This document shows positions 38,492 through 47,613 of a DNA stretch of 64,000 nucleotides, piece by piece; position 1 is the stretch's first letter, and every line of letters starts with the position of its first letter. This stretch comes from Gammaproteobacteria bacterium (lineage in GTDB: Bacteria; Pseudomonadota; Gammaproteobacteria; Enterobacterales; Permianibacteraceae): the NCBI GenBank assembly GCA_016182845.1, contig JACPFT010000001.1, positions 186,001 to 250,000 of the forward strand. Direction: 5' to 3'. Below the pieces are notes generated by a model. The model saw only the letters and a program-made list of their open reading frames with translations, did no database searches and had not been told where the DNA came from. Both the position numbers and the translations under genes were made by a program.

Positions 38492-40663
38492 ATGACTAGC
38501 GAAGCGAAGACCTTTTCTCTGTCCGTCCGCGAGGACGGCATCGCCCTCGTCACGATCGATGTGGCCGGCGAGGCCATGAACACCCTGAAAGCCGAGTTCG
38601 GCGCCGAAATCGGCGAGCTCTTTGCCGCCATTCGCGCTGACAAGGCCATCAAGGGCGTGGTGCTCATTTCCGGCAAGCCCGACAACTTCGTGGCCGGCGC
38701 CGATATCAATATGCTCAAGGCCTGTAAGACGGCGGAAGGCGCGGAGCAGCTGTCGCGCATGGGCCATGCCACCATGGCCGAGCTCGGCAAGCTGGGCGTG
38801 CCCGTGGTCGCCGCCATCCACGGTCCGGCCTTAGGCGGCGGCCTGGAGCTGGCCCTGGCCTGCCATGCCCGCGTGTGCACCGACGACGCCAAGACCGTGC
38901 TCGGCCTGCCGGAAGTGCAGCTGGGCCTCCTGCCCGGTTCCGGCGGTACCCAGCGCCTGCCGCGCCTGGTGGGCATCGCCGCTGCACTGGACATGATGCT
39001 GACCGGTAAGCAGCTGCGCGCCAAACAGGCCAAGAAGATCGGCCTTGTCGACGAAGTCGTGCCCAAGTCCATCCTCCTGGAAGCCGCCGTCAAGAAGGCC
39101 AAGTACCTCGCCGGCAAGAATCTGGACGACGTCCATCCCAAGCCCGGCATCCTGTCCCAGCTCACCTCCATTCCGGGCATCACCAAGCTCGCCCTGGAGG
39201 AGAATGCCTACGGCCGCAAGATCCTCTGGGAACAGGCGCGCAAGAAGCTCCTGGCCAAGACCCGGGGCAACTACCCGGCGCCGGAACGCATCGTCGATGC
39301 CGTGGAAGCCGGCATCGAGCAGGGCGCCGCCGCCGGCTACGAGGCCGAGGCCAAGGGTTTCGGCCAGCTCGTGGTCAGCCCCCAGGCCGCCCAGCTGATG
39401 AATATCTTCTTCGCCACCACCGAGATGAAGAAGGACCGCATGGTCGCCGCCGAGCCGCGTGCCCTGCACAAGATCGGCGTCCTCGGCGGCGGCCTGATGG
39501 GCGCCGGCATCGCCTACGTCACCATCGACAAGGCCAAGCTGCCGGTGCGCCTCAAGGACGCCAACGACAAGGGCGTCAACCACGGCCTGGGCTATAGCTG
39601 GAAGCTCATCAACGAGCGCGTCAAGCGCCGCCACATGACCAAGACCGAGGCCAGTGCGCGCCTGTCCCAACTGACCGGCACCACCGATTTTTCCGGCTTC
39701 AAGGGTTGCGACATGGTCGTGGAGGCCGTGTTCGAGGATCTCAAGCTCAAGCACCAGATGGTCGCCGACATCGAACGCGAATGCGGTCCAGACACCATCT
39801 TCGCCACCAATACCAGCTCCCTGCCCATCGCCAGCATCGCCGAGGCCTCGGCCAAGCCGGAGAACGTCATCGGCCTGCATTATTTCTCGCCGGTGGACAA
39901 GATGCCCCTGCTGGAAATCATCAAGACCGACAAGACCGCCCCCGAGGTCATCGCCACCGGCGTCGAGTTCGGCAAGAAGCAGGGAAAGACCGTCATCGTC
40001 GTCAACGACGGCGCCGGTTTCTACGTGAACCGCATCCTGGCGCCATACATGAACGAGGCGGGCCGCATCCTCGTCGAGGGCGTGCGCGTCGAGCAGATCG
40101 ACAAGTCCCTGCTGGACTTCGGCTTCCCGGTCGGCCCCATCACCCTCTTGGACGAAGTGGGCATCGACGTCGCCACCAAGGTCGGCCCCATCCTGGAAAA
40201 GGCCTTCGGCGAGCGCATGGCCGCGCCGGCCGCCTTCGCCCGCCTCTTGGACGACGACCGCAAGGGCAAGAAGAACGGCAAGGGCTTCTACGTCTACGGT
40301 CCCAAGGTCAAGAAGGGCGCCAAGGACGTGGACGAGTCGGTATATTCGGTCTTGGGCATCAAGCCGGGCCTGGCCATGGACAAGGCCGTGCTCGCCGAGC
40401 GCTGCGTCCTGCTCATGGTCAACGAGGCGGCACGCTGCCTGGACGAGGGCATCATCGCCTCGGCCCGGGACGGCGACATCGGCGCCATCTTCGGCATCGG
40501 CTTCCCCCCCTTCCTGGGCGGCCCCTTCCGCTATGCCGACAGCCTCGGCCTGCCGGCCCTGGTGGACAAGCTGGAGACCTATGCCGCGAAACTGGGTGAG
40601 CGCTTCCAGCCGGCGGAGCTGCTCAAGCGCATGGCGGCGGAAAATCGCCGCTTCTATGGGTGA
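38492..40663 (+). CDS. fadJ: Fatty-acid oxidation complex alpha subunit FadJ
   Basis: 723 residues, a bifunctional enzyme. The N-terminal crotonase half has the oxyanion loop VAGADINML, with catalytic Glu residues near GGGLELALAC and GLPEVQLGLLPGSGGTQ. The C-terminal L-3-hydroxyacyl-CoA dehydrogenase half has the NAD loop VLGGGLMGAGIAY and the HYFSPVDKMPLLEII catalytic His segment. Its hydration and oxidation products feed the FadI thiolase encoded just upstream. ATG 38492 follows CAGGAGAAACCC. A decayed copy of the last 35 or so codons lies near 46904-47008. Confidence 0.95.
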   Translation: MTSEAKTFSLSVREDGIALVTIDVAGEAMNTLKAEFGAEIGELFAAIRADKAIKGVVLISGKPDNFVAGADINMLKACKTAEGAEQLSRMGHATMAELGKLGVPVVAAIHGPALGGGLELALACHARVCTDDAKTVLGLPEVQLGLLPGSGGTQRLPRLVGIAAALDMMLTGKQLRAKQAKKIGLVDEVVPKSILLEAAVKKAKYLAGKNLDDVHPKPGILSQLTSIPGITKLALEENAYGRKILWEQARKKLLAKTRGNYPAPERIVDAVEAGIEQGAAAGYEAEAKGFGQLVVSPQAAQLMNIFFATTEMKKDRMVAAEPRALHKIGVLGGGLMGAGIAYVTIDKAKLPVRLKDANDKGVNHGLGYSWKLINERVKRRHMTKTEASARLSQLTGTTDFSGFKGCDMVVEAVFEDLKLKHQMVADIERECGPDTIFATNTSSLPIASIAEASAKPENVIGLHYFSPVDKMPLLEIIKTDKTAPEVIATGVEFGKKQGKTVIVVNDGAGFYVNRILAPYMNEAGRILVEGVRVEQIDKSLLDFGFPVGPITLLDEVGIDVATKVGPILEKAFGERMAAPAAFARLLDDDRKGKKNGKGFYVYGPKVKKGAKDVDESVYSVLGIKPGLAMDKAVLAERCVLLMVNEAARCLDEGIIASARDGDIGAIFGIGFPPFLGGPFRYADSLGLPALVDKLETYAAKLGERFQPAELLKRMAAENRRFYG

Positions 40664-41246
40664 ACGAGCCGGTTATGGGGGGCGGCGGTTGCGCGGTAAG
40701 CGTGCCGCCGCCCTTCGCAAAGACCGCTGCGCGAATGGTTCACGGCGAAAAACGGGGCCCAGGCCAGATAACAAAGGGCCAGAGCATACTTTGCCATCTA
40801 GTGAGAGGAAGAGTGCTTCGATACGCGCCCAAAGGGCGCTATTCAGCACTAGCGGTTATTTTTTGCACCGTTCGCCCTGAGTAGCCCGTTTTAGCGGGCG
40901 TATCGAAGGGCTCCTTGGCGTTGTTCAGAGAAGTATGCTCCGGCCCTGCCAGATAACAGCCATGGCGCCAAGCCGTGCCCTTAAGCAGAAAATGCCCGTT
41001 CGTCCTGAGCCCGTCGTCGGATGAATGGACTTTCCTCGCCCTCGGAACCCTGCCGTCGATGCGCCGACAGGGTGCGCCACGAATGCTCACCGGCTTATCT
41101 GTGCGTCGTTCAATAAGCGCTTGACAGGCGCCAGGGCGTCGAGTCTACTCGCATCGTTTCGTCCAGCCTGGCGACAAACGTCGCCGCCAGAGGAAGCCGT
41201 CAGATCCCGACTCAGGCCACTGGATCCATAACCAACAACAGACAGG
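40664..41246. other. Repeat-rich intergenic region upstream of the RHS gene
   Basis: 583 bp without a credible gene. It holds a CTTCGATACGC...GCGTATCGAAG inverted pair (near 40817 and 40898), another CGTTCGTCCTGAGCCCGTCG copy near 40999, and a good promoter at 41121-41149. Confidence 0.6.
41121..41149 (+). promoter_or_regulatory. Sigma-70 promoter upstream of the RHS gene
   Basis: A perfect TTGACA, a 17-bp spacer, and TCTACT (four of six matches) lie about 98 bp upstream of the first RHS ATG. Confidence 0.55.
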
Positions 41247-45409
<4,163 letters not shown>

Positions 45410-45410
<1 letters not shown>

Positions 45411-45877
45411 TGAATGGTGAATCAATACCCCCGCCAGTTCAAGTTGCCGACTTGCTACCAATTCGAGTCAACTCAGCTCAACAGTACTGGGGGAGCTTTG
45501 TTCGAGTTGACGGAGTCTCTTCGGCAGGCGACCAAGTTCATTTAAGAGTGTATTTGTGTGATTGGCAATTATTCCAACGTGGACAGCTTGTTGCCAGTTC
45601 AAATGCCGATATTTCGAATAACAAGATTGGCCTCAACTCGCTCGCAGGGGTGCTCATAGAAAAAATTGCTATACCGGATAAAGCTCATGTCAAATTGACA
45701 TGTTCCGAAGGTGTAGTATTGCAACTGGATGCAAATTTTTACGAGTATGATGAAGGTGATATCTTGCTCTACTTTTATTTGCCATCACGAAGCATCAGTT
45801 ACAATCCGACTTCCGGTTTTTTGAGTGAAATAGAAGGCATAGAGAAGATCGATGGGGCAAGTGACATTGATCCTTAG
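45410..45877 (+). CDS. Probable immunity protein of the RHS toxin
   Basis: 155 residues from ATG 45410, which overlaps the RHS stop as TAATG, so translation is coupled. No family is recognised. The sequence looks beta-rich and soluble with several aromatic strands (VHLRVYLCDWQLFQRGQ, DILLYFYLPSRSISYN). It is visibly AT-richer than the flanking genome, like the toxin tip, which suggests the two moved together. The immunity role is inferred only from position and pairing. Confidence 0.7.
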
Positions 45878-45891
45878 TTGAAAGCCCCACC

Positions 45892-45922
45892 ACCGCCCGG
45901 CCCTGCCGGGCGGTTCTATTTT
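45892..45922 (+). terminator. Terminator after the RHS/immunity pair
   Basis: ACCGCCCGG-CCCTG-CCGGGCGGT followed by TCTATTTT, 15 bp after the immunity gene stop. Confidence 0.85.
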
Positions 45923-45931
45923 GATGCGCTG

Positions 45932-45970
45932 AAAACGAAGAAGGCCGGATCACCCGGCCTTCTTCGTTTT
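45932..45970. terminator. Strong bidirectional hairpin with A- and T-runs
   Basis: AAAACGAAGAAGGCCGG and its exact complement form a 17-bp stem around ATCAC. A-rich left and T-rich right ends allow termination on both strands. Confidence 0.85.
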
Positions 45971-46190
45971 ATCGGTGTAGCGCTTGGCGTCGTGCATCTG
46001 CAGAATGCCGTCGAGCAGGGTGATCACCGCTGAAAAACCATCCCCAAAGCCCTGACCACATGGGGGAGTTCGGGGGCGTGCTCGCAACTCCCCCTTCCCC
46101 TCTGACCGAGTAGACCTCACCCAACCACGGCTCTGACCAGCCGGGAATTTTTATCGTTTGCCCTTAGCCGCTTTCGGTATTCGCCTGCGG
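45971..46190. other. Gene-free stretch with a possible decayed coding end
   Basis: No intact gene. On the minus strand a frame ending at the TGA 45952-45950 reads GFSAVITLLDGILQMHDAKR then YTDKTKKAG. It has no start or ribosome-binding site and could be the 3' end of a lost gene. It is not recognised. Confidence 0.3.
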
Positions 46191-46703
46191 TTAGCTGGCA
46201 TTCAGGGCTTCGTTCACTTCATTAAGTATATTGTCAAGGGTCTTTTCACCGTAGCCGACATGGACTCGTTTGATGATTCCGTTTCGATCGACGATGACAA
46301 GATGAGGAATGCCCTTCCGGCCATAGAGGTGCGAACTTTGGCCTGCTGCGTCATGGGTTAACAGTAACGTCAGACTCGACAATTGCCGTGCAAAACGAAG
46401 AAATTCACGTCGCTTTTCGATATTGACCGCAACAATCTGTAGTCGATCCGAACCTGCCGCCTTCTGCAGCGCTTCCAGTACAGGGAGTTCTTTTAGGCAG
46501 TAACCGCACCAGGATGCCCAGAACGTGACGATCAGCACTTTACCCTTGAATTCGGAAGCGGAAACTTGATCGCCATCGGAATTAATGCCGATGTCTTGCG
46601 GGGCGAGGTCTCCAGCTTGTGGTTGAGCGCCCGCAGCCGAAACCATGGCGAGTAAAACAAGTGGCATGATGAGAAAATAGCGGAACAGTCCTCGTGTCAT
46701 CAT
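46191..46703 (-). CDS. TlpA/ResA-like periplasmic thioredoxin
   Basis: 170 residues. A signal peptide (FLIMPLVLLAMVSAAGA) precedes a thioredoxin-fold domain with the redox motif WCGYC in VTFWASWCGYCLKELP, and the cis-Pro region GIPHLVIVDRNG. The family reduces or exchanges disulfides in the periplasm, for example during cytochrome c maturation. It is AT-richer than the genome average and sits alone between the RHS island and a fadJ remnant, so transfer is possible. It has no cytochrome-maturation neighbours. ATG 46703 or the adjacent ATG may be used. Confidence 0.88.
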   Translation of the reverse strand: MMTRGLFRYFLIMPLVLLAMVSAAGAQPQAGDLAPQDIGINSDGDQVSASEFKGKVLIVTFWASWCGYCLKELPVLEALQKAAGSDRLQIVAVNIEKRREFLRFARQLSSLTLLLTHDAAGQSSHLYGRKGIPHLVIVDRNGIIKRVHVGYGEKTLDNILNEVNEALNAS

Positions 46704-46903
46704 AATTATCAGTCCGTGTCGGGTGGAATATAGGGGCTTGCGAGTTATCCGTGGTCAGTCTCGGTGGTTTGACATGGACAGGCAGCGTCGGCATCCTCGA
46801 TTTTCACCCAACAGCCTACCCGACCGGAGCTCTCCGGCCAAGCGTAGAGGTTCTGATGGGCGAACTGTCCAATGGCGCGTTTCTGGAAGCAGTCTTATTA
46901 ACC

Positions 46904-47008
46904 CTGGTCGACAAGCTCGGGACCTATGCCGCAAAACTGGATGGGTTTTTCCAGCAGGCGGACCGCTTGAAGCGCATGACCCAGGAGGCAGCGTTTCTTG
47001 GTGGCGCA
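46904..47008 (+). pseudogene. Decayed fragment of a fadJ 3' end
   Basis: The translation LVDKLGTYAAKLDGFFQQAD then RLKRMTQEAAFL aligns with the FadJ C-terminus LVDKLETYAAKLGERFQPAE then LLKRMAAENRRF, and the DNA is clearly related (for example GACCTATGCCGC). It lacks the rest of the gene. It ends about 45 bp before the nitroreductase start. Confidence 0.75.
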
Positions 47009-47052
47009 TTCTTGCCGTAGAATGGCCCGCTTTGACTTCGATGGAAAACCCG

Positions 47053-47613
47053 ATGGATGCCTTAGTCGCACTGACCACCCGCGTGTCCCAAGGCCGGCTA
47101 CAAGCCCCGGCGCCCGACGGCGAGGCCCTGGAACGGATGTTCCAGGCCGCCTTGCGCGCGCCGGATCACGGGGCGCTCAAGCCCTGGCGTTTCCTGGTGG
47201 TGGAAGGCGAGGGCCTGATGCGCCTGGGCGAGGCCATGGCCGACGCGGCCGTGGCGGACAACCCGGCGCTCGGCCAGGACAAGCTGGACAAGGCGCGGCA
47301 GAACCCCCTGCGCGCGCCCATGGTGATTGTCGCGGCGGCGCGGGTGGTGGAACACCCGAAAGTGCCGGCCGTGGAGCAGTTGCTGTCGGCCGGCGCGGCG
47401 GTACAGAACCTGATGCTGGCTGCCCATGCCCAGGGCTATGCCGCCATGTGGCGCACCGGGGATTTGGCCTATAGCCGGCGTTTCATGGATGCCCTGGGGC
47501 TGGCGCCCGACGAGCGGATCGTCGGCTTCATCTATGCGGGCACGCCGACGGGGCCGGCCCGCGAGCCGCTGCCGCCGGTGTTGGCGGAGCATGTGCGGCA
47601 CTGGCCGCAGTAA
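47053..47613 (+). CDS. YdjA-type nitroreductase family oxidoreductase
   Basis: 186 residues. The small FMN-dependent nitroreductase fold closely resembles E. coli YdjA: an opening MDALVALTTR, then RAPDHGALKPWRFLVVEGEG, the KARQNPLRAPMVIVAAARV segment, and the C-terminal GFIYAGTP. ATG 47053 matches the family start and follows GGAAAACC; a second ATG four codons upstream is possible. Upstream in-frame codons come from the fadJ remnant and are excluded. The physiological substrate is unknown. A terminator follows six bases after the stop. Confidence 0.9.
   Translation: MDALVALTTRVSQGRLQAPAPDGEALERMFQAALRAPDHGALKPWRFLVVEGEGLMRLGEAMADAAVADNPALGQDKLDKARQNPLRAPMVIVAAARVVEHPKVPAVEQLLSAGAAVQNLMLAAHAQGYAAMWRTGDLAYSRRFMDALGLAPDERIVGFIYAGTPTGPAREPLPPVLAEHVRHWPQ

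Follow-up and report, generated by a model that had tools for sequence, protein, structure and literature searches.

In a 64,000-nucleotide stretch of gammaproteobacterial DNA, hereafter the window, a short open frame about 6 kb downstream of an intact fadJ gene resembles the end of fadJ, which raises the questions of where this fragment came from and whether it still encodes a product. We compared the fragment with the resident gene, with the rest of the genome and with related genomes, and we examined the DNA that separates the two fadJ tails.

Similarity between the fragment and the end of fadJ

The features of the two tail copies are as follows.

38492–40663, plus strand: intact fadJ, the source gene, 723 aa (TIGR02440, NF008363), with a fadI-type thiolase gene directly upstream
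40557–40633, plus strand: parent copy of the duplicated tail, located by alignment, genome search and repeat finder
46902–46978, plus strand: decayed duplicate of the fadJ tail
46979–47020, plus strand: remainder of the frame up to the stop codon TAG

The best local alignment between the region of the fragment (46704–47060) and the fadJ region paired 46902–46978 with 40557–40633 at the fadJ 3′ end, without a gap and with 62 of the 77 positions identical (81%). Its score was 82; over 300 shuffles that preserved dinucleotide content, the mean was 22.9 (sd 2.4) and the highest value 32. The original prediction, made from the sequence by eye of a reader model, had described a resemblance to the fadJ end with many substitutions; this was confirmed, the alignment score being well above the shuffled expectation. 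The repeat finder returned the identical pair as a direct repeat with its copies 6345 bases apart, and throughout the 3.82-Mb genome the fadJ tail was the only other significant match of the fragment (E 2e-13; next 0.6). When a profile built from a FadJ alignment was run against all six frames of the surrounding DNA, it recovered the same stretch alone, and weakly. Because the two tail copies differ by 19%, an assembly artefact is an unlikely source of the fragment.

The homologous part comprises 25 codons (LVDKL.TYAAKL...F.QA..LKRM). On both sides of it, alignment to fadJ was at chance level in the shuffle control, with p 0.21 for the left flank and p 0.56 for the right, and the tail homology is detectable up to 46978, which is 30 bases short of the equivalent of the end of the fadJ stop codon. 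The match to FadJ is real, but it had been put at about 35 residues; only the 25 codons hold, and the last 13 codons of the frame are not demonstrably FadJ.

Outside this genome, a search of 394 other genomes of the order with the fragment gave one short hit of 38 bases (G388), which was taken as a chance match, and plasmid and phage records gave none. A 23-base match in G002, located in a phage-tail-tape-measure-like frame, was likewise attributed to chance.

Two chromosomal blocks and the DNA between them

The two tail copies are separated by the following features, and the fragment is followed by a conserved gene.

40664–46901, no strand: inter-copy block of ~6.3 kb, containing repeats, an RHS gene, a small ORF and a TlpA-like gene
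40775–40950 (40763–40960 with flanks), no strand: dispersed palindromic element with terminal inverted repeats, ~175 bp, ~110 bases past the fadJ stop codon
41247–45410, plus strand: RHS-repeat protein gene, 1387 aa (Pfam PF05593/PF20148/PF03527; TIGR03696)
45404–45877, plus strand: 157-aa ORF overlapping the end of the RHS gene, no Pfam match
46191–46703, minus strand: TlpA/ResA-like thioredoxin-fold gene (Pfam Redoxin, 3e-21)
47053–47613, plus strand: YdjA-like nitroreductase gene (NF008088, 176.4 bits; cut-off 183), start of the right-hand conserved block

The GC content drops from ~0.65 to 0.46–0.55 at 45.0–47.0 kb, in the right part of the inter-copy block. The RHS gene is present as a single copy in the genome. 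From its position, the 157-aa ORF, which is low in GC, may encode an immunity protein against the RHS C-terminal domain. The product of the TlpA/ResA-like gene has NCBIfam TlpA/ResA-type matches under the cut-off, and its best family relative is 33% identical. The RHS gene, the small ORF and the TlpA-like gene are the only recognizable genes of the block; no integrase or recombinase gene was recognized in it, and no tRNA genes were detected in the window. The palindromic element after fadJ has the direct repeat CCAGATAACA at both sides, and its ends read AGGGCC[A/G]GAGCATACTT and the inverse. Over 30 matches to it, complete or partial, are present in the genome, and at least two of these copies, L134 and L137, likewise seem to lie between direct repeats of 9–11 bp, in a MITE-like manner. 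A second dispersed repeat follows the palindromic element at 40962–41100, and six or more matches to it lie at other places in the genome.

Synteny was compared with two genomes of the same family, G001 and G002. The left block, which spans 29.7–40.66 kb of the window and ends with fadJ, is collinear with G002, in which fadJ is followed by an unrelated gene on the opposite strand whose product we take, by sequence recognition, to carry a GGDEF-type end. The right block, which includes the nitroreductase gene, a CBU_0585-type gene and AsnS and extends to ~59.3 kb, is collinear with both G001 and G002, where it lies apart from the fadJ block and behind a tRNA-Glu gene. In G002, this tRNA-Glu is preceded by gltX and tRNA-Ala. 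The genome under study has its own gltX/tRNA-Ala/tRNA-Glu cluster on contig C10, followed by yebC instead of the nitroreductase block (the names gltX and yebC are presumed from sequence recognition). The tRNA-Ala/tRNA-Glu array behind gltX on this contig (L175; 4999–5700) consists of five genes, including tRNA-Glu(ctc), and that of G002 of two.

Two blocks that are apart in both family relatives thus meet here around the 6.3-kb RHS/TlpA insert, and the fragment occupies the right edge of the insert, which is the left edge of the right block, ~75 bases upstream of the start codon (47053) of the nitroreductase gene. In this position, the fragment borders a junction specific to this lineage, in agreement with the suggestion that it marks a boundary of an accessory block. 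A tRNA-Glu gene is also located near the nitroreductase gene in G009, G033 and G053, three genomes that belong to a different family. This suggests that the tRNA-Glu/nitroreductase arrangement came first and the junction described here is derived. In one distant genome of the order (G045; L187 on contig C5, also L206), the nitroreductase gene directly follows fadJ. Since the two genes are ~1.3 Mb apart in its congener G022, this adjacency probably arose independently, perhaps by chance. Adjacency of fadJ and the nitroreductase gene as the ancestral order was rejected, given the distance in G022 and its absence from all 80 other fadJ loci that were compared with up to 10 kb of flanking DNA.

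Origin and decay of the fragment

The resident gene is a clear fadJ, its product scoring 1092.9 bits against the NCBIfam FadJ model TIGR02440 (cut-off 968) and 1143.4 bits against NF008363 (cut-off 869). Aligned with this gene, the fragment reaches a score of 82, compared with no more than 25 for the fadJ tails of 105 relatives, and it retains residues of the resident FadJ that are rare in the family, namely T696 (4%), L701 (5%), Q706 (1%) and R713 (3%). Owing to these shared rare residues and to the difference in score, the fragment is identified, at the level of sequence, as a copy of the 3′ end of this lineage's own fadJ, and the proposed duplication of the fadJ end fits these results.

The best explanation, which we regard as probable, is that the fragment is a fossil of the resident fadJ end, stranded by the joining of the two blocks or by the RHS-TlpA insertion. 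The fadIJ block would have been joined to the nitroreductase-led block in this lineage, and the fadJ tail would have been duplicated in direct orientation, either at that joining or when the RHS/TlpA block entered. The duplication may have been a short tandem one that was later split by the insert, or an insertion at the end of fadJ may have copied the tail in the process; the insertion itself is a possible cause. The intact fadJ would then have remained functional, and the stranded copy would have diverged until 81% identity was left. As the longest identical run between the two copies is 12 bp, they are probably too diverged to serve as a site of homologous recombination, and recombination between them today is unlikely.

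Site-specific integration into the fadJ 3′ end could produce the same geometry: the tail carried by the element would restore the gene and the original tail would be displaced, leaving direct-orientation tails at both edges of the insert with the displaced copy beside the right flank, as seen here. We consider this origin unlikely, because the block has neither a recognizable integrase or recombinase gene nor a tRNA gene, no identical core exceeds 12 bp, no mobile relative was found in phage or plasmid records, and the homology could be followed only to 46978, whereas displaced gene ends normally keep it as far as the stop codon.

The original prediction had offered, as an alternative, the remnant of a second fadJ-like gene. 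Such a gene would be an old paralogue or one acquired horizontally, of which the end alone survived. The matching frame is open, and chance survival of a gene end is conceivable, but the fragment resembles the resident fadJ far more than it does any of the 105 FadJ genes, and no other fadJ sequence is left upstream of it. The genome's sole FadB/FadJ paralogue, of FadB type and 39% identical to the resident FadJ, does not match the fragment, and it was rejected as a source with a score at chance level. This alternative is accordingly very unlikely.

It appears highly improbable that accessory blocks repeatedly insert at the 3′ end of fadJ and rebuild it, the fragment being the original tail displaced by a kind of integration not described before. 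A search of the literature for integration into fadJ returned nothing relevant.

Turning to the present state of the stranded tail, it covers 25 of the 723 codons of its source, with no extension either way, and it has lost the near-invariant FadJ residues G702 (99%), R704 (99%) and P707 (98%). The 15 differences from fadJ are distributed over codon positions 1, 2 and 3 as 2, 6 and 7, second positions being altered about as often as third. This spread gives no sign of protein-level constraint, and with 15 differences in 77 bases it is a supporting point, weak when taken alone. Judged from its sequence, the fragment is a decayed, non-functional fossil, and most likely it has no product today. 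The notion that the enclosing frame, open over 89 codons from a GTG at 46751 to 47020, works as a small gene that has taken up the fadJ tail has only a negligible probability, given the lack of protein-level constraint, of a Pfam match of its 89-aa product (the FadJ enzyme domains included), of a relative within the order and of a promoter-like site on the plus strand. For annotators, this short frame adjoining the nitroreductase gene is not a gene, and no function is to be expected of it.

Comparison with known systems

Genomic islands of the icd or guaA type integrate at the 3′ end of a protein-coding gene, and the present locus resembles them in having a copy of the gene tail at each edge of the insert. 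It differs from them in the absence of a recognizable integrase, of a conserved core and of homology shown to the stop codon; tyrosine-recombinase islands carry a recombinase gene in the insert and an identical att core with homology reaching the stop codon, and neither was found here.

A closer likeness is to the bacterial pseudogene fragments that lie at insertion or rearrangement breakpoints, in that a short, partial and decayed direct copy is located near its intact gene at a synteny breakpoint. The features of a decayed partial gene duplicate were all found, namely significant homology, truncation, the loss of conserved residues and of constraint, and an origin within the same genome. The fragment is a genuine but ordinary gene fossil, and it matters as no more than a local landmark of the place where two chromosomal blocks that used to lie apart came together around the RHS gene. 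From other bacterial pseudogene fragments that arose by partial duplication it does not differ in kind, being an old and small remnant with 81% identity to its source.
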